DNA from: Acidobacteriota bacterium
GTDB taxonomy: Bacteria; Acidobacteriota; Blastocatellia; Chloracidobacteriales; Chloracidobacteriaceae
Direction of reading: 5' to 3'
Length of the DNA stretch: 64,000 bases
Assembly: GCA_016208495.1 (NCBI GenBank)
Contig: JACQXX010000007.1
Coordinates: forward strand, 1-64,000
Part shown: piece by piece, positions 964-57,864 of the stretch
How positions within the stretch are numbered: position 1 is the first letter of the stretch
Layout: each line of letters opens with the position of its first letter
The notes under the pieces: generated by a model
Database searches by the model: none
Told to the model about the DNA's origin: nothing
Seen by the model: only the letters and a program-made list of their open reading frames with translations
Translations under genes and position numbers: made by a program

Positions 964-3306
964 ATGATGTTTTATCTGATAACCCTCACAAAAAAGCGCG
1001 GCGTCATCAATTCAATTTCCGCAATACATCTGGTGATGAGCAGGTGGGTTGTTGGGGGATTTCTGGCTCTGATACTGCTGGTATTGATGACACCACATTC
1101 GTCAGGCAGCCAGTTGACCCAAAAACCACACCAGCTCGAATTACCCTTCAATGTCAGATTCAAATCTTCACTGATTCAACCCCAGGTGATTTCAAGGGCA
1201 CAGGTTCAGTCCCTGACCAGGTCGTCCACAAACATCAATCTGGCACCTCAGACAATTCAACCCGGCACGGCTCTGGATAAGGTGACATTTTATGGGAATG
1301 GAATTACCTCGCTCATCGCGGCGGCTGACACCAATAATGATCGGATTCCCGATGGGAATGCCCGCGAGACCTTTACAACTGGTGACCCTGAACTTGAAGA
1401 ATTTACAGCCCTTGCCGTGAGCTCTCAGACCCAAAGAGTCTATGCCGGCTCCCTCGTTTTTGAAGGACCTGCGGCCAATGAGGGCATTTTGACCGTGTTT
1501 GACAATTCGAATGGAAGCTTCAAAGGCACGGTCCTTCGAAAAATACCGCTAGGCAAAGGCATGCCGGTTGGGATTGTGATCAAACACTCAGGCGATGGGG
1601 ATATAGTCATTGTCATGTCGGTTTACTATCAGGCCGCCTCCCCGTTTACCCTGACGGAAGGTGATTTTGTTTCAATTACTGCTTACTTGCCCGGCCCTGA
1701 TGGTTCACCTGATGGCAACCGGAACGTAGATGTCCTCCCCGCCGGGCAATTAAAGCTTGGTCTGGATCTGGTGGCGTTTAGTTTTGGAGGGATTGCCCTC
1801 AGCCAGAACGGGAATTTGATTGCCAACCTGGTGGCGAAAAATGCCATAGACGGATTTGCTGGTGGCGCCGTCTTTGTTTTCACCGACAACAACGGAGATG
1901 GCATCCCTGATAACCTGGTTCCTCCAGCCCTGTTTGCCCAATTTAGTGACCAAAATATTGCCAATTTGATTGCTGCGACCAGCGTTGTGCCGCTGGCGGG
2001 CGGTAAAATTGGTGTCCTCAGCGCCGATATTTTTTCGGATTCGGAAACCGAAATTTTTGTCTTCAATGATGCTGATGGAGATGGAAAGGTAAGCGATACC
2101 GGTACCAAGATCTTTAATGAATCGCTGGCGTTTCCAGGGATTTTATTGCTTTTTGAGGGGACTTCCGGGTATGTGGTCAACCGCATGACTGGCGCCGGCG
2201 ACAAGCTGATCTTCTCGTTTATCAATTTTCAAGGTGAACCGCGTGGTTCAGGGCTGGCTTCAGTTTCAATTGGTGGAAGCACCGCCGATAAAGCCTTTGA
2301 TGTCAGCAATCCACAGGCCGAGATTGTGACGTGTGTGGCCAGCTTGTCAGGGAGCAGTCCTGATACGGTTCCTCCCACTGTGCAGGTGACCTCGCCAAAC
2401 GGTGGCGAAACTGTCCGCCCTGGGACGGAACTGGAAATTCGATGGACTTCTTCCGATGACAAAGGCGTGGTGACCCAGGGCATCAGTCTTTCGGGTGACA
2501 GTGGTACCTCATTTGGGTTCACAGTGGCGACCGGACTGGCTGGTGAGACCACTTCGTTTCGGTTTGTGGTGCCAAATGGTCTTGGAACTCAAAATGGGCG
2601 GATTCGGGTTACTGCCCGAGATAGTGCCGGAAATATTGATGCTGACCTGAGCGACCAGGATTTTGTGATTTTGGGAGCAACCGGAGTTGATACCCGTCCC
2701 CCAGAGGTCACTGTGTCCGCACCAGCGACCGGAGCCGTTTTGACCGGAGGAACTTCCGCCACGGTTGCCTTCAGTTCAACTGATAATGTCGGGGTGAGTT
2801 CGCACAGTCTGGCGTTTGCCGCGGATGGTTCAACCTTTGATACACCGCTGGCGACTGGACTGCCAGGTGACATCACTTCATTTGATGTGACCTTGCCAAA
2901 CCAGACCACCTCGACCGGGGTCATTCAAGTGCAGGCTGCCGATGAAGCGGGGAATGTCGGGGCGGGTTTCAGTGGTATGTTTACGGTCAATGCTGATACC
3001 GTAAAGCCAGCGGTCACTGTCATTTCACCCGGTACTACCCTCAAAAAGGTCAAGCGCGGCGAGCCAATCAACGTGACCTGGACTTCGACAGATAACGGAC
3101 TCGTTGTCAGGCACGACATTGAGTTGTCCACTGATAACGGTGCGACGTTCGGGACGGTACTGGCGGCAGGCTTACCAGGGACAGCCCAGTCATTTCTGGC
3201 CACGGCGCCAGGTATCAAAGTCAAAAAAGCGATTATCAAAGTGATTGCAACTGATGGGGCTGGGAACGCGGGTGAAGGCCGTTCAACCCCATTTAAGGTG
3301 AAGTAG
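964..3306 (+). CDS. Large exported protein with Ca-binding loops and three Ig-like domains
   Basis: A 780-residue exported protein, probably displayed or secreted. A hydrophobic export segment lies at about residues 28-45; ATG at 1036 (residue 25) is an alternative start and neither has a good ribosome site. Residues 70-450 look like a beta-propeller or repeat domain with Asp-rich loops (DTNNDRIPDG, DNNGDGIPD, DADGDGKVSD) resembling calcium-binding loops. Three Ig-fold repeats follow at about 465, 575 and 677, opening with a D-x-x-x-P-x-V motif and, in the first, SPNGGE. These resemble the Kre9/KNH-like bacterial module. The same repeats end the three following large genes and the gene at 39637, so the C-terminus may serve a common surface or export role. 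No catalytic motif was recognised. Confidence 0.85.
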   Translation: MMFYLITLTKKRGVINSISAIHLVMSRWVVGGFLALILLVLMTPHSSGSQLTQKPHQLELPFNVRFKSSLIQPQVISRAQVQSLTRSSTNINLAPQTIQPGTALDKVTFYGNGITSLIAAADTNNDRIPDGNARETFTTGDPELEEFTALAVSSQTQRVYAGSLVFEGPAANEGILTVFDNSNGSFKGTVLRKIPLGKGMPVGIVIKHSGDGDIVIVMSVYYQAASPFTLTEGDFVSITAYLPGPDGSPDGNRNVDVLPAGQLKLGLDLVAFSFGGIALSQNGNLIANLVAKNAIDGFAGGAVFVFTDNNGDGIPDNLVPPALFAQFSDQNIANLIAATSVVPLAGGKIGVLSADIFSDSETEIFVFNDADGDGKVSDTGTKIFNESLAFPGILLLFEGTSGYVVNRMTGAGDKLIFSFINFQGEPRGSGLASVSIGGSTADKAFDVSNPQAEIVTCVASLSGSSPDTVPPTVQVTSPNGGETVRPGTELEIRWTSSDDKGVVTQGISLSGDSGTSFGFTVATGLAGETTSFRFVVPNGLGTQNGRIRVTARDSAGNIDADLSDQDFVILGATGVDTRPPEVTVSAPATGAVLTGGTSATVAFSSTDNVGVSSHSLAFAADGSTFDTPLATGLPGDITSFDVTLPNQTTSTGVIQVQAADEAGNVGAGFSGMFTVNADTVKPAVTVISPGTTLKKVKRGEPINVTWTSTDNGLVVRHDIELSTDNGATFGTVLAAGLPGTAQSFLATAPGIKVKKAIIKVIATDGAGNAGEGRSTPFKVK

Positions 3307-3338
3307 GAGCAGGAGTCAGGAGTCAGGAGTCAGGAGTC
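3305..3338. repeat. Tandem heptamer array (AGGAGTC)
   Basis: Nearly five head-to-tail copies of AGGAGTC begin directly after the stop codon of the preceding gene. The gap also contains the GACTACT array at 3442-3513, whose words are partly complementary (GACTCCT against GACTACT), so pairing within the gap is possible but imperfect. Confidence 0.8.
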
Positions 3339-3441
3339 GAGTGTTGGGATTTTGAATTCTCTGTCAAGTGTATTTGGTTCGATTTGAGTCATTTAGGAAC
3401 AATTCTTTTCAAGAATTCCATGGATTTAACGATTCGGGTTT

Positions 3442-3513
3442 GGACTACTGACTACTGACTTATCATCTACTGACTACTGACTACTGACTTATCAACGACT
3501 GACGACTGACTCG
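3442..3513. repeat. Tandem heptamer array (GACTACT)
   Basis: Two runs of GACTACT separated by short TTATCATCTACT and TTATCAAC linkers, turning into GACTGAC copies. It lies about 80 bp upstream of the ATG at 3591. Confidence 0.8.
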
Positions 3514-10926: not shown

Positions 10927-11107
10927 TGAGCAAGTAGTGAATAGCGAGTCGTCAGAATGAGCAAGTCGCGAGTCGTCAACCTGTGACAAATTGAATTTAT
11001 GGTTTGATTGCTCAGTATTCCATCGTTACCAAAGCGATAAGCTTAAATGACGTAACAGAAAAGAACCTCTTCTGACTACTCGCTACTCGCCACTCACTAC
11101 TCGCTCT
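10927..11107. repeat. Inverted pair of heptamer arrays
   Basis: GAGCAAGTAGTGAATAGCGA at 10927 and on is the imperfect reverse complement of the run ending CTCGCCACTCACTACTCGCT near 11105. The unit is CTACTCG or its complement CGAGTAG. The two arms flank about 90 bp of plain sequence, so the transcript of the gap could form a long imperfect hairpin. Confidence 0.7.
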
Positions 11108-19919: not shown

Positions 19920-19931
19920 GACACGAAGAAG

Positions 19932-20063
19932 CGGTTAGTGGTTAGTGGTTAGAAATCAATACTTTCGAAGACGAACCAAGAACCAAGAACCAAGAACCAG
20001 GAACCAAGAGCCAGGAACCAGGAACTAATCACTGATCACTAACCACTAACCACTAACCACTAG
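19932..20063. repeat. Inverted GTTAGTG/CACTAAC array pair between convergent genes
   Basis: GTTAGTG copies at 19932-19952 are matched by reverse-complement copies of AACCACT at 20038-20062. Between them lie the junction TTAGAAATCAATACTTTCGA and a run of AACCAAG/AACCAGG heptamers (19973-20025). The genes on both sides end here, so a hairpin from these arms could act as a two-way terminator. The junction recurs at 53720 and, reversed, near 29100. Confidence 0.75.
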
Positions 20064-21765: not shown

Positions 21766-21920
21766 GTTAAGGGCTGAGGGTTGAAGACTCGCAAGCTTGG
21801 GGCTGCAAAATCCAGGGTTTAGGGCTTGGGGCTGAAGACTCGCAAGCTCGGATCGCAGAAAGGGATGAGGGATGAAATAAAACCAATGTCTTCAGCCCTC
21901 ATCCCTGGTTTTCTCATCCC
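21766..21920. repeat. Mixed heptamer arrays with inverted arms
   Basis: GGGCTGA and GGGTTGA copies with GAAGACTCGCAAGCT repeated twice (about 21784 and 21835), then AGGGATGAGGGATGA whose complement CTCATCCCT appears twice at 21898-21920. On the minus strand the array runs right up to the ATG at 21764, and no Shine-Dalgarno sequence is seen. Confidence 0.65.
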
Positions 21921-37592: not shown

Positions 37593-37708
37593 GATGTTGA
37601 CCGATGAAAACCGCAGGTGGGCGACGAAATGTGCCATCCACAGAATAAAGATTTTCGACAAGCCGTCAATGAATCACATTTTCGATGGCATAGCATTTCA
37701 GAAAAAGG

Positions 37709-37797
37709 TTCAGAGTCCCGCCTTTAGGCGGTCTTTTTTCTAAAGCACACATTTTCAATATTTTCCAAATCATTCCGCCTAAAGGCGGGACTCTAAA
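37709..37797. repeat. REPIN-like inverted pair
   Basis: Two 23-bp arms in opposite orientation (37709-37731 and 37775-37797, 22 of 23 matching; GAGTCCCGCCTTTAGGCGG) flank 43 bp of AT-rich DNA. Each arm contains its own short palindrome (CCGCCTTTAGGCGG), which is the layout of two REPs forming a REPIN. It sits between the divergent kinase and lnt genes. No RAYT transposase gene is in the window. Confidence 0.75.
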
Positions 37798-37853
37798 CAA
37801 TATCCGAAAAGCTATAGCAGGGGGATTTGAGATGATGAGGAAGGGGTGAACAC

Positions 37854-39509
37854 ATGTCGAAATCACGGTTCATCACACACCTGTACCAGTTGCGACCTTA
37901 TTTGCTGAGCGGGCTCTTGTTCAGTCTGTCCTATCCGTCATATCCGTGGGTTCGGCTCGAATTACTGGCCTGGGTCTGTCTGGTGCCGATGCTGTTGGCG
38001 CTCCGGTCGGTGACTTCGTTTCGCAAAATGTTTGGTCTGGCCTGGGTCACGATGTTTGTTGGCTGTCTGCATACAATGACCTGGTGTATGTGGGCCAGTC
38101 CGTGGCTGATTGGCGGTTTTGTGCTGGTGGCCGCGTTCATTTTGGCCGCACCGTTTGCCGTTTTTGGGGTGATTCAAAAGCGGCTGAATCGTCGGGTTGC
38201 GCTCTGGACATTGCCCGTGGTGTGGACGGCCTCAGACTGGATTCATCACAGTCTGGACGGAACCTTCGGGGGGTTGGGGTTTGGGGTCACCCAGCACAAG
38301 TTGACGTGGCTGATTCAATTTATTGATGTGACAGGAGTTTGGGGGCTGACCTTCTGGCTGGTTTTGATGAATGTCGCCATGACCGTCGCCATCGAGGAAT
38401 TCCAGGCCCGACAGCAATCTGCAGGTGAAACGATGGCGCGGCAATATCTCGTCCGGCGGCTGGCTCTGACCGGCGCCACATTGCTGATAGTTCCGCTTTT
38501 GTATTCAGCCTGGGTTTTTTCACAGCCTGAACGCTTTTCAAATCGCGGTCAGCTTTCAGTCATGCTGGTCCAGCCCAATGTCAACCCGTGGGTTCGCCTG
38601 ACGCCGGAACTCGCCACGCAGGTCATTGGTCAGACCGTGGTTGTCACCAACCACGCGCTCAAGGATTCCAAACCGGATTTGATTGTCTGGCCTGAAGTCG
38701 CCGTGCCGTCCGTGCTGCTCCACAATCAATCGGACCGTGAATTTCTCGCGCGACAGGTCCGACGCTGGAACGTGTCGCTGGTGACCGGGACGCTTGATGT
38801 GCCTTCTCAGGAGTATTCGTCATCAGCTTCGAAATCAGAAAAACGTCTGGTTTGGAATAGCTCGGTGATGGTGTCGCCCGAGCGGAATGTCAGCGGGCAG
38901 GTCACCGGAACCACGATTTCAACGCCATATCACAAACAGAAATTGATGCCGTTTTTTGAGCGGGTTCCGCTGGTGCAATGGGTTCCCTCGCTAGAGCGTT
39001 TCACGTCTCATCCCACAATGGCAAATCGGCTGATTCCAGGTCGCACGACAGGCACCTTTTCCTTCCAAACCACCACCCAGCAAACAGTTACGGTCGGAGC
39101 ACCAGTTTGCTATGAACATTTCTACCCTCAGGTGATGGCCGATTTTGTGCGCAACGGCGCCAATCTGCTGGTTCTGCTTTCCAACGACGGCTGGTTTGCC
39201 AAAACCCACGGCGAGTATCAGATAGCTGCTTTTACCGAGTTGCGGGCGATTGAAACCCGGCGGGCGATTGCCCGATGTGCCAATACCGGGATTACCTGCC
39301 TGATTGATCCGTATGGGCGCACGTATCAGGCGCTTCCGTGGTGGCAGGAAGATGTTCTGGTTGGGGTCGTTCCGCTTTCAACCCAGTTGAGTGTGTATGT
39401 CCGCTACCCGGATGTTTTTCCCAAAACCTGTGTATGGCTGGCACTGGCCGTGGTTTTCGGTGCGTTTCGAGGCTGGGCCAAAGAATGCGGGCTGAAGAAA
39501 ATGGGCTGA
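37854..39509 (+). CDS. lnt: Apolipoprotein N-acyltransferase
   Basis: A 551-residue inner-membrane enzyme that adds the third acyl chain to lipoproteins. GGAAGGGG precedes the ATG. The N-terminal half has seven or so membrane segments; the C-terminal half is a nitrilase-fold domain. The catalytic triad is readable: Glu near 281 (VWPEVAVPS), Lys near 360 (PYHKQKLMPFFERVPL) and Cys near 418 (GAPVCYEHF), followed by NLLVLLSNDGWF. The final membrane segment lies at about 525-540. Length and motif spacing fit Lnt well. Divergent from the hybrid kinase; the REPIN-like pair lies between them. Confidence 0.93.
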   Translation: MSKSRFITHLYQLRPYLLSGLLFSLSYPSYPWVRLELLAWVCLVPMLLALRSVTSFRKMFGLAWVTMFVGCLHTMTWCMWASPWLIGGFVLVAAFILAAPFAVFGVIQKRLNRRVALWTLPVVWTASDWIHHSLDGTFGGLGFGVTQHKLTWLIQFIDVTGVWGLTFWLVLMNVAMTVAIEEFQARQQSAGETMARQYLVRRLALTGATLLIVPLLYSAWVFSQPERFSNRGQLSVMLVQPNVNPWVRLTPELATQVIGQTVVVTNHALKDSKPDLIVWPEVAVPSVLLHNQSDREFLARQVRRWNVSLVTGTLDVPSQEYSSSASKSEKRLVWNSSVMVSPERNVSGQVTGTTISTPYHKQKLMPFFERVPLVQWVPSLERFTSHPTMANRLIPGRTTGTFSFQTTTQQTVTVGAPVCYEHFYPQVMADFVRNGANLLVLLSNDGWFAKTHGEYQIAAFTELRAIETRRAIARCANTGITCLIDPYGRTYQALPWWQEDVLVGVVPLSTQLSVYVRYPDVFPKTCVWLALAVVFGAFRGWAKECGLKKMG

Positions 39510-39616
39510 AGAAAACGGGAATTTTGTCTTGAGCCCGAAGTCTTCAGCCCCAAGCCCGTAGCCCTGGTTTTTTCAGCCCTGTTTTCTTCAGCCCGACTTC
39601 TTCAACCCCAAATCCT
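39505..39616. repeat. GGCTGAAGAA and complementary TTCTTCAGCCC arrays
   Basis: Starts inside the last codons of lnt (GGGCTGAAGAAAATGGGCTGAAG, the encoded end being ECGLKKMG) and continues with TTCAGCCC words in the opposite sense, so the two halves can pair as a hairpin. Confidence 0.65.
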
Positions 39617-39636
39617 TATGTTCCAGGAGAAAGAGT

Positions 39637-42600
39637 ATGTCCAAACGATTCCTTTTCATGATGTTTGTTATCACGGTGCTCTTCGGAGGGCTGATGGTTG
39701 ATGTGTCATTGTCATCAAAGAATGTTCAGGCCAACACAATAACAGTCACTGACAAACCTGATGCTGACCCCACACCTTACCCTGTTGTGGAGATGGCAGG
39801 TCAGATCAAACGGGAAGCGGCCTATTTTTCGACTTCTGGCTCAAGTCAACTTTCCAACGCAGCCCATCTGGTTGAGAACCACAAGGGCGGGGCATCGCAG
39901 GCCGTTGGTTCCATGGTTTTTTCGCTGGGTCTTCTGGCTGGCGGACTGATACTGGCAATTTCGTTGGTTTCTTTGCCTGGAATGGGCCCCAAGGCTGGCG
40001 TGCTACTGTATGGGAAGTGGGGGGCTGGCATGTGTGTGCTGGCAGCGCTGGTCGGAGTTCGCGGCGTGGTCGGCGTGCCTGATACTGCTCGTACCATTTC
40101 AAAACCGATATCGGCGCCCGTGAAACAAACTGGAAGCGGGACACCGGATTTTGTCGCTTCGCTGGAAATCGGTGGACGCGGGACCACTCAAATTGGTGGA
40201 GCTGCCGTGGATGAAGCCGGCAATTTGTATGTCACTGGGGGTTTTTCAGAACATATCTTTTTTGCCACCACGCCGCCCACAAAGCTGACTTCGACGAAGG
40301 GCTATGATTTCTTTATCGCCAAATACAGCCCGGCCCGAAAGTGTCTGTGGGCCCGCGTGGCCAATGGAACGAGTGAAATTTCTTCAGAATTATCCCTGGA
40401 TGGCGGATTGACAATCGCGACTGATGGTCAGGGGAACTGTTATGTCGGAGGTGGGTTTGTTTCGTCGCTGGTATTCAAGACGGAAAGCGGCAGCACGGCA
40501 GTGACGTTGGCGGCTTCTGGCTCGGGGCTCAACACCGAACCGTTTGTGGCGAAATACAACACTGACGGCACGTTGGTATGGGCAAAAGGAGGGAACAGCG
40601 GCAGTCCTCAGTCAACCGATTCGTTAAATAACAACATCAACAGCATCCTCAAGCTTGTGGTTGACCGTCAGGGAACGCCCTATGTGACCGGCCATCTGAC
40701 TGGAAATTCCTTTCTTGGAAAACCGGCTCAGATTTCCGGAGTGCAGGATTCAATTGTGGCCCGGCTCAATCCCGCGACTGGCGATCCGGTCTGGGTAACG
40801 GCGCCAGTTTCGACTGGTTCAGAAAGCATATTTGATCTGGCACTTGATGGAGTGGGAAATCTGTATCTGGTCGGAGCTTTTTTAGGACAGCCGATCACGT
40901 TTCCAACGCCCTCATCACCAACCACCTTCGCGTTGAGTGACCATGATGCAGATACCTACGTCGCGAAATACACTCCGAATGGCCAGTGTCTGTTTGCACG
41001 ACAGATCGGCGGGGGCAGAATTGTCGGGTTTGACATTGCGGCTACCAGTGCCGGTGATTTTTATGTCACCGGGGCTTTTATCTCACAGGCGGTGTTTGGT
41101 GACGTTACGCTGACGACTAATGCAGTCAGTATTTCCGGGTTTTTAGCCAAATACAGTGCCAGCGGCACCCTGTTGTTTGCCCAGGAATTTGGGAAAAACC
41201 TCTATACCAGTGGCAACCGGGTTGAGGTGGATGCCAGCGGTACGGTGTATGTGGTTGGGTATCTGAGAGGCGAAGCAATCTTTGGCGGCATTGGTCAAAA
41301 CGCCCAGACACTCAGTTCAAGCAATGTCAGTATGTTTCTGGCGGTGTATAACGCGGCTGGAGCTTTCCAATATGCCAGATTGCTTCAGGGGGCGAATAAC
41401 CTGAGTTTGAATTTGCTGTTTAAAAATCCAAACACCCAGGTCAACGTCGAACCGATCAACCTGATGGTCAATCAGGTTTCCGGGCAGTTGATGGTTTCAG
41501 GAGATTTTAGTGGAACACTTGAAATTTCCCCAATCCTGGAAATTGACACCGAAGACTATGATTTTGACGGAGATACCGAAGAAGACAGCACCGATTTTGA
41601 TGGCGACGGTGATGATGATGCGGATGACAATGACGATGACGATGACGACGATGATGACGACGATGATGATGACGATGGTGATGGCGACGGCGATGGCGAC
41701 GGCGACGGTGAAGGTGAAGGTGGTCGCCAATCCTCAACCCCAAATCGAAATGGCTTTGTAGCCTTCATTCCATTGTTCCAGGTCACGGTTGAGGCTCCAA
41801 CGGCCCAACTGACCTTCCCCAGAGGCGGTGAAACCTTTACTGCGGGCCGTACCTTGAACCTTACCTGGAATTCAAATGACCAGGCCGGTGTGGTGTCGCA
41901 CGATCTGGCGCTTTCAACCACCAGTGGTCGGGATTTTACCACCACGATCATCACTGGTCTGTCAGGTCTGGCCCAGAGTTTTGACTACCAGATTCCAGAT
42001 TCGCTCAGAACCGATACCGGACGGATTCGGCTGACAGCCGCCAATGCTGCCGGATTGACAGCGCAGTCCGTAACACCAACGGATTTCCGAATCGTGGCCC
42101 CGAGCAACGACCGTGAAAATCCAACCGTAACCGTGCAATCGCCGGTTGCTGGTGCGACATTCAGTTCCATCGCCGGTGCGCAGGTAAATGTGGCCTGGAC
42201 GTCAACCGACAATGTTGGTGTCGTATCCCACACGGTGAAGTTCTCTGGCTCACGCAACGGTGCCACCTTTACTCAAACCGTGGCTTCCGGGTTACCTGGA
42301 ACCGCCACGAGTTTTGTTCTCCAGATTGTAAAAGACGATGTCGTGGCCAATGGTCAAATGCTGATTGAAGCCACGGATGCGGCTGGAAATACTGGTCAAG
42401 GACGTTCCGGTATTTTCACCATTACCAAGGCCGCAAGCGACACCATCGCCCCGGTTGTGTCTGGGGTGACCCCATCCAACACCAAAATCAAGCGCAAGAA
42501 GAACCCGAATGTGACCATTTCGTGGACCTCAACCGACAACGTGGGTGTGGTGTCGCACGACCTGTCTTTTGCCGCAAATGGTTCTGATTTCTCGACTTCA

Positions 42601-42753
42601 GTGGTGTCCGGATTGCCCGGAAGTGCTCAATCATTTGTCTGGAGCATTCCTTCCAGCATTCCAAAAACCAAAACTGGCGTGGTGAAAGTTGTGGCGAAAG
42701 ACGCGGCTGGAAATTCTGGTGAAGCCCGATCAGGCGCGGTGTCAATTAAGTAA
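39637..42753 (+). CDS. Exported protein with SBBP-like propeller, poly-Asp tract and three Ig-like domains
   Basis: A 1038-residue exported protein; GGAGAAAGAG precedes the ATG. Signal segment at 5-25, a second hydrophobic stretch near 90-145 that could anchor it, then repeats with AAVDEAGNLYVTGGF, KYSPARKCLWARVA and similar (SBBP/beta-propeller type, about 165-630). Residues 638-700 are extremely acidic: about 15 consecutive Asp followed by (Gly-Asp)n and (Gly-Glu)n, probably binding calcium or other cations. Three Ig-like domains follow (about 720, 828, 937), of the same type as in the 964-14247 genes (GGETF, SSD/STDN-x-GVVSHD). The acidic tract may be a calcium-dependent hinge between propeller and Ig stalk. 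Confidence 0.85.
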   Translation: MSKRFLFMMFVITVLFGGLMVDVSLSSKNVQANTITVTDKPDADPTPYPVVEMAGQIKREAAYFSTSGSSQLSNAAHLVENHKGGASQAVGSMVFSLGLLAGGLILAISLVSLPGMGPKAGVLLYGKWGAGMCVLAALVGVRGVVGVPDTARTISKPISAPVKQTGSGTPDFVASLEIGGRGTTQIGGAAVDEAGNLYVTGGFSEHIFFATTPPTKLTSTKGYDFFIAKYSPARKCLWARVANGTSEISSELSLDGGLTIATDGQGNCYVGGGFVSSLVFKTESGSTAVTLAASGSGLNTEPFVAKYNTDGTLVWAKGGNSGSPQSTDSLNNNINSILKLVVDRQGTPYVTGHLTGNSFLGKPAQISGVQDSIVARLNPATGDPVWVTAPVSTGSESIFDLALDGVGNLYLVGAFLGQPITFPTPSSPTTFALSDHDADTYVAKYTPNGQCLFARQIGGGRIVGFDIAATSAGDFYVTGAFISQAVFGDVTLTTNAVSISGFLAKYSASGTLLFAQEFGKNLYTSGNRVEVDASGTVYVVGYLRGEAIFGGIGQNAQTLSSSNVSMFLAVYNAAGAFQYARLLQGANNLSLNLLFKNPNTQVNVEPINLMVNQVSGQLMVSGDFSGTLEISPILEIDTEDYDFDGDTEEDSTDFDGDGDDDADDNDDDDDDDDDDDDDDDGDGDGDGDGDGEGEGGRQSSTPNRNGFVAFIPLFQVTVEAPTAQLTFPRGGETFTAGRTLNLTWNSNDQAGVVSHDLALSTTSGRDFTTTIITGLSGLAQSFDYQIPDSLRTDTGRIRLTAANAAGLTAQSVTPTDFRIVAPSNDRENPTVTVQSPVAGATFSSIAGAQVNVAWTSTDNVGVVSHTVKFSGSRNGATFTQTVASGLPGTATSFVLQIVKDDVVANGQMLIEATDAAGNTGQGRSGIFTITKAASDTIAPVVSGVTPSNTKIKRKKNPNVTISWTSTDNVGVVSHDLSFAANGSDFSTSVVSGLPGSAQSFVWSIPSSIPKTKTGVVKVVAKDAAGNSGEARSGAVSIK
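41603..41722 (+). repeat. GAT/GAC trinucleotide repeat in coding region
   Basis: GATGAC-type codons repeat for about 90 bp followed by GGCGAC and GGTGAA repeats. It encodes the poly-Asp and (Gly-Asp/Glu) tract. Mixed GAT/GAC codons reduce slippage, but length differences between strains are likely. Confidence 0.8.
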
Positions 42754-42862
42754 TCAGGGGTCAGGGGTCAGGGGTCAGGGTTTCGAGTTTTGGTCCTTTA
42801 TGTCCTTTATGTCCTTTTCCTGATCGGACCCCCGACCCCCGAACCCTGACCTCTGACCCCTA
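42754..42862. repeat. Inverted CAGGGGT and GACCCCT/GAACCCC arrays
   Basis: Four AGGGGTC copies start at the stop codon; TTTATGTCC nonamers (42797-42823) are in the middle; the arm CGGACCCCCGACCCCCGAAC with TGACCTCTGACCCCTAAAAT closes the hairpin. The array stops 10 bases before the ATG at 42870. Confidence 0.75.
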
Positions 42863-43922: not shown

Positions 43923-44191
43923 AATGAAGAATGAAGAATGAAGAATGAAGAAAACCAGGGTTCAGGGTTTTCAAAGGAAAAAAGCAATTTTGAAATTGTA
44001 AAGTACCGATGCCAGATAGGGTTTTCAGACCCGCAAGGTCGTCGTTCAATAGCCGTGGTGCGAAGCTCACGGAAAGAGAATAGAAAAGGAATTGATTCGA
44101 AGACCCTGAACCCTGAACCCCGAACCCTGAGAACCCTGAACCCTGAACCCCGAACCCCGAACCCTGAACCCTGAACCCCGAACCCCGAACC
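43921..44191. repeat. Large inverted array region between kinase and regulator
   Basis: Four GAATGAA heptamers at the stop codon, then CCAGGGTTCAGGGTT (43963), then about 100 bp of plain sequence, and finally about 14 AACCCTG/AACCCCG heptamers (44103-44190) that end two bases before the ATG. The CAGGGTT copies are complementary to the AACCCTG array. The TTCGAAGACCC junction is at 44096. Confidence 0.8.
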
Positions 44192-44193
44192 GT

Positions 44194-44955
44194 ATGACTG
44201 AGATTCGAGCTGTGATTGTAGATGATGAACGCCTGGCGCGCCGTGATTTGCGGGTGTTGCTCAAAGCTCACCCGCAGATTTCAATCATTGGCGAAGCCGA
44301 CACCCTGGAAACAGCGATTGAAGTGATTGGTCGCCTGGAACCAGATGTTGTGTTTCTGGATATTCAAATGCCTGGAGGGTCAGGGTTTACCGTTTTAAAC
44401 TCTATTGATCCAGCGATTCAGGTGGTGTTTGTCACGGCCTTTGACGAATATGCCGTCCGGGCGTTTGAAGTGGATGCCTGTGATTATCTGCTCAAGCCGG
44501 TCAACCCCAAACGGCTGGCCAAAACGGTTGCCCGGTTGCAATCTCTGTCAGAACCTGTTGTCACAGGAGAACCCGAAAAATCGTCTCCACTGGCTCTTTC
44601 CACTACCAAACCTTTGACCTATGAAGAGTATATCTTTGTCCGGCGGCCTCCGAATGCCGGGTTTGTAAAGGTCAAATCGGTGCTCTTAATTCGGGCGGCG
44701 GGAGATTATTCAGAATTGTATTTGTCAGATCAGACAACGTGTCTGCTCAAAAAATCGCTTCGTGACTGGGAAGCGATTTTGCCCCAGCCTCAGTTTTTGC
44801 GGGTCCATCGGGCGGCAATTCTGAACCTGGAATATGTCGAACAGATTGAACCCTCTCCGGAAAATACCTATCGGTTCACCCTGCGGGGACTCAACGAACC
44901 GGTTGTTTCCAGTCGAAGTTACAGCACCGCGCTTCGTGAGCGGTTTTGCCCATAG
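44194..44955 (+). CDS. LytTR-family response regulator
   Basis: A 253-residue regulator of the LytR/AlgR type. Receiver at 1-120: IVDDERLARRDL, phosphoacceptor D56 in VVFLDIQMPGGSG, FVTAFDEYAVRAFEVDACDY and LLKPVNP. LytTR DNA-binding domain at about 150-250: IFVRRPPNAGFVKVKSVLLI, RAAGDYSELYL, FLRVHRAAILNLEYVEQI. It probably pairs with the upstream LytS-type kinase and controls transcription by binding direct repeats near promoters, as AlgR and LytR do. Its ATG follows directly on the AACCCCG array, with no ribosome site. Confidence 0.93.
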   Translation: MTEIRAVIVDDERLARRDLRVLLKAHPQISIIGEADTLETAIEVIGRLEPDVVFLDIQMPGGSGFTVLNSIDPAIQVVFVTAFDEYAVRAFEVDACDYLLKPVNPKRLAKTVARLQSLSEPVVTGEPEKSSPLALSTTKPLTYEEYIFVRRPPNAGFVKVKSVLLIRAAGDYSELYLSDQTTCLLKKSLRDWEAILPQPQFLRVHRAAILNLEYVEQIEPSPENTYRFTLRGLNEPVVSSRSYSTALRERFCP

Positions 44956-49697: not shown

Positions 49698-49711
49698 ACA
49701 GGCAGAATCAA

Positions 49712-49855
49712 GAATGAAGAATGAAGAATGAAGAATGAAGAAACTACCTGGTGTTTGGTGCTTAGGAGTCAGTATTTTCCAAGAACCAGGAACCAGGAAC
49801 TAAAAAAATTCTTCATTCTCAATTCTTCATTCTCAATTCTTCATTCAATTTGGTG
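49712..49855. repeat. Inverted GAATGAA and TTCATTC arrays
   Basis: Four GAATGAA copies (49713-49740), the phrase GGTGTTTGGTGCTTAGGAG, ACCAGGA heptamers, then AATTCTTCATTCTC repeated three times (49807-49850). Left and right arms are complementary over about 30 bp. The last copy comes within 15 bases of the ATG at 49862. Confidence 0.8.
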
Positions 49856-57361: not shown

Positions 57362-57403
57362 TCATACCACCAGGGTTTCGGGGTTCAGGGTTTCGGGGTT
57401 CAG
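57362..57403. repeat. GGGTTTCG/GGGTTCA array
   Basis: AGGGTTTCGGGGTTCAGGGT and further copies. They are reverse complements of the octamer array at 57481, so the two could pair across the roughly 75 bp in between. Confidence 0.75.
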
Positions 57404-57480
57404 GGCAGGATCATCCAACTTGCATGGTCACTGCTGGTTTCTCAGCACTTATTTTGAGTGGGATGAGTCAATTCATCACC

Positions 57481-57568
57481 GAAACCCCGAAACCCCGAAA
57501 CCCCGAAACCCCGAAACCCCGAAACCCCGAAACCCCGAAACCCCGAAACCCCGAAACCCCGAAACCCT
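57481..57568. repeat. Perfect octamer array (GAAACCCC), 11 copies
   Basis: Ten exact GAAACCCC units plus one GAAACCCT, the longest and cleanest array in the window, then GAACCCG. Such purity suggests recent expansion or active copy-number change. Confidence 0.92.
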
Positions 57569-57608
57569 GAACCCGATTTTAGTGGGATTTTATTTTCTTC
57601 TGGGTCCC

Positions 57609-57864
57609 TAATACTACAACGAGGTTTCGGTTTTAACCTGCGAAGCGGGTGATGGCTCGTAGCCCAGGGTGGAGTCTTCGAAACCCTGGGTTGACGGTCA
57701 TCCCCAATTTCTCCCGCCCCGCCGGCAACCGCCGTAGGCGGTTGCCGGCGGGGCGGGAGGGGGAGCAGGCCGTTGGTCCCAGGGTTGCACCCTGGGCTAC
57801 ATGCCTGCCGCCCAGTTCCTGGGCTTAAAACCCGGTTTTTTATTAAAACCTCGTTGTAATACTA
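57609..57864. mobile_element. 256-bp fold-back (MITE-like) element
   Basis: Terminal inverted repeats of 19 bp (57609-57627 and 57846-57864, 17 of 19 matching; core ACAACGAGGTTT). Nested inner arms (AGCCCAGGGT with ACCCTGGGCT) and a perfect 23-bp GC-rich central hairpin (57711-57733, 57737-57759) with a 3-nt loop. Its left part shares 57635-57670 with 301-335. Same build as the element at 484-826 but different ends. Confidence 0.7.

Follow-up and report, generated by a model that had tools for sequence, protein, structure and literature searches.

The open reading frame at 39637-42753 of the window (the whole 64,000-nt stretch analyzed) ends immediately 5′ of a G-rich tandem array, (TCAGGGG)x3.9, on the + strand at 42754..42780. 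A spacer follows (42781..42826), within which a nonamer array, (GTCCTTTAT)x2.8, occupies 42793-42817, and then a C-rich arm on the - strand (42827..42861) built of GACCCCC and CTGACCCC units, which is an imperfect mix of unit variants and pairs with the arm at 42754..42780. The spacer resembles sequence at 38 places, mostly via the nonamer array. A short-period GAT/GAC repeat at 41598-41717, coding and within the same open reading frame, is separate from the arrays.

The original prediction named seven such loci, and at all seven a G-rich array does come first and is followed by its reverse complement or a near version of it, some arms being imperfect. Between two convergent genes, a G-rich arm (GGTTAGT; 19930..19958, +) and a C-rich arm (ACTAACC; 20033..20061, -) enclose an AGTGGTT-family core, AAATCAATACTTTCGAAG with a (GAACCAA) array (19959..20030, +), to which similar sequence occurs at 30 other places, often flanked by AGTGGTT arms. 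At the far end of the window, CAGGGTTTCGGGGTT repeats (57371..57405, +) precede an AGGGTTC-family core (57406..57478), which shares 93% identity over 73 nt with another copy and recurs at eight other places, mostly adjoining AGGGTTC arms, and then a C-rich arm of (CCGAAACC)x11.6 plus CTGAACCC (57479..57574, -). A short G-rich arm (CAGGGTT; 43955..43970, +) is paired across a spacer (43975..44100) with (ACCCTGA)x12.4 (44103..44191, -), which stops just 5′ of the start codon of the open reading frame at 44194-44955; this spacer holds a different dispersed repeat containing ATAGCCGTGGTGCG, present in the window at 43999-44075 and 430-485 and found in many gaps (28 places). The G-richer (AGAATGA)x5.6 arm (49704..49742, +) and the C-richer (AATTCTTCATTCTC)x2.9 arm (49807..49846, -) form a nested arrangement, in which outer AGAATGA/TTCATTC arms surround inner CCTGGTG../..AACCAGG segments that are also paired in the predicted fold. 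The remaining two pairs are (AGGGATG)x2 (21861..21874, +) with CTCATCCC units (21895..21920, -), and a degenerate AGCGAGT-like arm (10933..10975, +) with (CTACTCG)x4.3 (11076..11105, -). Segments of the spacer recur elsewhere for six of the seven named loci, some of them being the common nonamer array or another dispersed repeat; the 10927 pair had no related spacer elsewhere in the sampled genome.

Two further pairs, at 3307-3511 and 39480-39617, had been missed. The G-rich arm of the former (3305..3338, +) belongs to an AGTAGTC-family element and reads AGGAGTC throughout instead of AGTAGTC, and the opposite C-rich arm (GACTACT; 3443..3511, -) is unaltered; the core of ∼105 nt between them (3340..3442, -) is 89% identical to the nearest sampled copy and occurs at 16 other places in the sample. 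The window also contains GC-rich inverted repeats unrelated to the heptamer arrays, at 625-682 (27 bp, perfect), 37708-37798 (37 bp, 81%), and 57711-57759 (23 bp, perfect), and yielded zero Rfam 15 matches above the gathering score.

That the paired arrays could fold the gap into a hairpin was borne out by the comparison with dinucleotide shuffles proposed in the original prediction. With 200 shuffles per locus, RNA folding z-scores at all seven named loci ranged from -3.5 to -8.4 (42754, -4.3; 19932, -7.7; 49700, -8.4; 21840, -3.5; 10922, -4.3; 57362, -6.9; 43955, -4.0), and none of the 200 shuffles matched the native fold at any of them. Without its right arm, 10927-11072 scored only -0.5, against -4.3 with it, and the right arm is thus needed for the fold.

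To place these loci in context, 1.49 Mb of the 8.4-Mb genome of the window (18%; G000) was sampled, the first part comprising 1.09 Mb; gene calls came from a simple hexamer model, and distances to start codons are approximate. Among the tandem arrays of at least three copies in the 1.09 Mb, drawn from a limited set of words, 210 of 275 had a period of 7, 29 a period of 8, and nine a period of 9, and 199 of the 210 heptamer arrays lay outside called genes. Where a gap held arrays in both orientations, an identical word appeared in both arms in 76 of 155 gaps across the 1.49 Mb, compared with 14.9 ± 3.5 (maximum 27) in permutations that preserved the vocabulary and the orientation of the arrays. 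The pairing is far above chance, and the earlier argument that slippage alone is insufficient is upheld, two word-matched inverted arrays being beyond its reach. The median spacer of matched pairs was 108 nt. In a relative from the same family but another genus (G001), 28 of 42 gaps had the same word in both arms (9.4 ± 2.3 permuted).

Matching also extended to gaps for which a cut-off of E < 0.01 yielded no relative, both in G000 (17/41 vs. 3.7 ± 1.8; for example AGCGAGT and AATTATG) and in G001 (18/31 vs. 6.2 ± 2.0; for example ACTGAGG and AATTGAG); with the cut-off loosened to E < 1, few gaps remained (2/13 vs. 1.1 and 6/11 vs. 2.2, respectively). Such word-matched pairs lacking a detectable common core would reflect either decay of the core while the arrays renew or a second pair-making process. 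Orthologous gaps were few, as the two samples shared only six conserved gene pairs; one divergent gap carried an AGTGGTT pair in G000, and its counterpart in G001 had arrays of AGGGTTC type on each strand. Two window proteins used as anchors failed to identify a clear orthologous gap in any of G001, G011, and G021. Many tests were made on the same data, and the margins for word matching, polarity, and core sharing are far beyond the reach of multiple testing.

The order of the arms was fixed. The G-richer strand came first in all matched pairs of G000 (111:0, 1.49 Mb) and of G001 (38:0), and in 259 of 276 unmatched pairs of G000. The nearest array within 60 nt after a stop codon was G-rich in the sense direction in 225 cases and C-rich in 27, and the nearest array before a start codon was G-rich in 11 and C-rich in 119. 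Arrays were densest in convergent gaps (5.1 per kb), followed by tandem (∼3.5) and divergent gaps (1.7), and the median distance from the stop codon to the start of a matched pair was 14-18 nt both in tandem gaps and for the left gene of convergent gaps, and 9.5 nt for the right gene of convergent gaps. Words without GG (AGTAGTC, AAGAATG, AATTATG, AGCGAGT, and others) made up about one-third of gene-proximal arrays and had the same polarity, both after stop codons (95:9, compared with 106:13 for GGG words and 87:6 for GG words) and before start codons (4:55); G-quadruplexes (G4) therefore cannot be the general cause of the polarity. Stop codons within the words were also rejected as the cause, since words without one behave alike, as was the general skew of gap DNA, which in array-free gaps of G000 was too small (-0.10 before starts and ∼0 after stops). 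The polarity calls for a cause other than G4 and, including that of partnerless arrays, is left unaccounted for by the element ancestry proposed below.

The same order was seen well outside this family: in 13 other genomes, including those of gammaproteobacteria, Gemmatimonas, Verrucomicrobia, Planctomycetota, and a cyanobacterium, GGGAATC pairs were G-first in 62 cases and C-first in none, where the genomes had been picked for having G-first pairs, so that the absence of C-first pairs is the informative part, and where the 62 include overlapping registers and so overstate the number of independent loci. An inner inverted motif like GTAAAAGC ... GCTTTTAC, common to distant groups, often lay beside the arrays of such pairs in Lysobacter, Solimonas, and one Verrucomicrobia genome. 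Spacers were also compared in these phyla, but the comparison mixes loci from related species that are probably orthologous and was left out as evidence for elements there.

Comparison of the spacers revealed that most matched pairs enclose sequence that is itself repeated. Of 74 spacers between matched arms, 63 resembled another spacer, and similar spacers had the same word in 218 of 269 pairs, compared with 412 of 2701 among all possible pairs; direct and inverted alignments were equally frequent. Inner flanks of arrays recurred at other arrays in 47% of cases and outer flanks in 19%, the controls being 19% for random pieces of array-bearing gaps and 6% for array-free gaps. In the AGTAGTC family, the core of ∼105 nt had a mean column identity of 92% over 23 aligned copies, with conservation reaching the array edge; a genome-wide core search that scored a limited number of candidates gave at least 40 distinct full-length cores, extrapolated to ∼96 copies per genome, with none in coding regions within the sample and no match in 38 relatives. 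The AGTGGTT family numbered 36 copies in 1.49 Mb, including 19932-20063; its element end was absent from a collection of named genomes that may omit the window's own genome. A plasmid collection gave no matches. The pair at 57362-57568 is a member of the AGGGTTC family, and G001 also has an AGGGTTC element of its own, built around another core. Words and cores were not tied one to one, in that one word flanks different cores and one core is flanked by related but different words.

Like miniature inverted-repeat transposable elements (MITEs), the AGTAGTC and AGTGGTT families consist of many similar short non-coding copies, and they have inverted ends, but of variable length. Neither a joined-flank search nor the surroundings of transposase genes revealed an empty site, a target duplication, or a mobilizing enzyme for these elements; the comparison included no close relative genome, and the junction-spanning matches appear repeat-driven. 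G000 encodes seven strong Y1_Tnp genes (on C91, C21, C107, C106, C161, C102, and C166). All four of those typed proved IS200-like, the RAYT model scoring far under its cut-off or not matching, and heptamer arrays were few around the Y1_Tnp genes and near only one locus, and mobilization as RAYT-driven REP/BIME was rejected on these grounds. As a separate observation, a dispersed element starting TACCATTTTGGAAT is seemingly inserted in an AGTGGTT array in the gap near 33257 of contig C1 of G000, with TAA on both sides that could be a target duplication.

Our preferred reading, with a probability of roughly 0.55, is that the paired arrays mark the two inverted ends of short intergenic elements that fall into several dispersed families, and that slippage makes the arms of each element grow and diverge separately from one another. 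The elements would be short (∼50-250 nt) and non-coding, and within a family both ends would carry one characteristic 7- to 9-nt word, oppositely oriented, with the G > C strand reading inward from either side. Whole elements, arms and core together, were copied into many intergenic sites in either orientation, as shown by conserved cores that lie beside an identical word in both orientations. Once an element is in place, its arms lengthen, shorten, or change word largely independently, as seen from uncorrelated arm lengths and mostly one-sided variants, and probably do so through slippage and homogenization. Elements persist mainly just 3′ of stop codons (median distance, 14-18 nt), sites at which an insertion probably does the least harm, and the hairpin would be a consequence of the inverted ends, perhaps affecting transcript ends mildly. 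The original prediction had offered a mechanism of inverted array copying as an alternative to a functional fold, and this fits the finding that many of the pairs represent dispersed elements copied together with a conserved core. Counting against an element origin, word matching is still significant among gaps to which no other gap is related at E < 0.01, word and core combinations are not one-to-one, and the searches in G000 tied the copying route to no transposase, target duplication, or empty site.

The competing view that the fold itself is the selected feature, for which the original prediction had suggested a function, would have selection keep the arms complementary so that an RNA or cruciform-DNA hairpin could serve, for example, in termination, mRNA protection, or insulation at the 3′ ends of genes, with a loop free to vary, so that coreless pairs are expected; we consider it unlikely on the whole. 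The arms are able to fold, and across 164 gaps the native sequence folded better on average than all controls: better than dinucleotide shuffles in 145, than word-swapped controls in 128, and than the mean of random-orientation controls in 110, with a median of -6.5 kcal/mol for the last and corresponding values of -23.1 and -13.8 for the first two. The random-orientation control, which had been put forward as potentially decisive, is weak, as flipping both arms keeps their complementarity, and the word-swap control was run alongside it; among the named loci that passed the filter for this set, 42754 and 49698 were better than the random-orientation mean and 19920 and 43923 were not. The location of pairs directly after stop codons, the excess of arrays in convergent over divergent gaps (5.1 vs. 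1.7 per kb), matching in gaps lacking a related gap, and the orthologous gap where the word paired in G000 differs from the word that G001 has on both strands would all suit a maintained hairpin. Variant CG units among 40 AGTAGTC copies were confined to the left arm in seven and to the right in one and occurred in both in three (Fisher p 0.04), at most a weak sign of joint arm change and within reach of multiple testing. Against upkeep of the fold, arm copy numbers were uncorrelated among matched pairs of the sampled genome (rho -0.03, p 0.78) and within the AGTAGTC family (rho -0.15, p 0.34); the RNAalifold covariation term for 23 aligned AGTAGTC copies was -0.02 kcal/mol, with kept double changes in only 2 of 26 consensus base pairs; and unmatched arms were enriched for words one or two substitutions apart (37 vs. 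21.1 ± 3.3), indicating that arms drift. A stem moreover needs neither conserved non-palindromic cores nor a G-first order, and TTTT occurred within 12 nt after the C-rich arm in just 21 of 152 cases (14% vs. a background of 7.5%), so the arrays do not qualify as intrinsic terminators. The hairpin is thus real, but present evidence gives no support to it as what holds the pairs in place; the weak joint change and the matching in gaps without a detectable relative leave room for a structural role.

Local inverted copying, in which an array is copied across the gap by template switching at quasi-palindromes, or by some comparable replication error, and slippage extends both, with neither dispersal nor function, is less likely again. 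Quasi-palindrome correction is an established mutational process, and such copying would account for word matching around unrelated spacers; however, spacers of ∼100 nt are long for this kind of template switching, most matched pairs have conserved cores, and the fixed order (111:0) is unexpected when a C-first seed should be equally likely. An improbable alternative is that arrays survive only where the sense strand is G > C after stops and C > G before starts, pairs being a by-product in tandem and convergent gaps; G-rich sense sequence before a start might mimic ribosome-binding sites, and C-rich RNA after a stop might load Rho. That the polarity holds for single arrays and for all words, that array-free gaps are C > G before starts (skew -0.10), and that Xanthomonas and Nostoc follow the same rule (PMC4692102) all agree with such a constraint, which nevertheless cannot yield the word matching of the arms (76 vs. 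14.9) and finds a background skew of about zero after stops. More improbable still, one process might extend the same word into the gap from each flanking gene, the G > C strand always leaving the gene and any spacer lying between, for example by templated addition at both ends of a break followed by joining; if true, this would explain word-matched arms around unrelated spacers, the polarity of unpaired arrays, and the polarity of unrelated words across phyla. The explanation to which we give the least credence is that G-rich arms function as G4 with pairing secondary, as proposed for the Xanthomonas and Nostoc repeats: AGGGTTC, CGGGGTT, CCGGGTT, and AGGGATG arrays contain GGG tracts and the positional rule is identical (PMC4692102), but the equal polarity of words without GG after stops and before starts refutes G4 as a general cause, although G4 may act at GGG words.

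Heptamer-dominated intergenic repeats are known in several bacteria, with no agreed role. Among open-access papers, no report of such arrays for this bacterial group was found, which is weak evidence. The GGGAATC and GGGGA(C/T)T heptamer repeats of Xanthomonas and Nostoc are intergenic, with their function left open; in Xanthomonas they form 70-75 inverted pairs per genome in convergent orientation, and in Nostoc they are mostly single arrays (Rehm et al., 2015; PMC4692102). These repeats are G-rich in the sense direction at ≤50 bp after stop codons, antisense before start codons, and under-represented between divergent genes. The arrays described here are alike in being tandem, intergenic heptamers in G-first pairs; they follow that strand rule as well and are likewise scarce between divergent genes. 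However, one word type per genome and G4 were stressed there, whereas ∼15 common words coexist here, arms are word-matched beyond permutation, several families have conserved cores, and words without GG keep the polarity; the arrangement is alike, but as a whole the present arrays do not form a G4 class. The TAACTGA repeats of Beggiatoaceae (169 sets, one of them indirect, mostly just upstream of start codons; MacGregor, 2015; PMC4679880) are likewise intergenic heptamer arrays at gene boundaries, but are direct and without inverted pairing.

The short tandemly repeated repetitive (STRR) heptamers of cyanobacteria include those in the Nostoc tRNA-Leu intron, where complementary arrays form a stem. 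They too are heptamer arrays, but in the intron they occupy a single site within a ribozyme, and the pairs here occupy many dispersed gaps. Bacterial MITEs and REP/BIME elements (PMC3733652, PMC4596501) are short, non-coding, dispersed, and intergenic with inverted ends; compared with fixed terminal repeats, the ends here are variable tandem arrays, and no target duplication, transposase, or RAYT partner was found in this genome.

The pattern is thus of a known kind, paired heptamers as in PMC4692102, to which a many-word vocabulary, word-matched arms, conserved cores, and a G4-independent polarity are added. With many words in one genome, the effects of the word (G4, stop codons) become separable from those of the arrangement, and a polarity that persists without GG, without stop codons, and in GGGAATC pairs of distant phyla calls for a G4-independent explanation. 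With conserved cores, what would be paired microsatellites become dispersed elements, open to tracing and to tests of whether they move.
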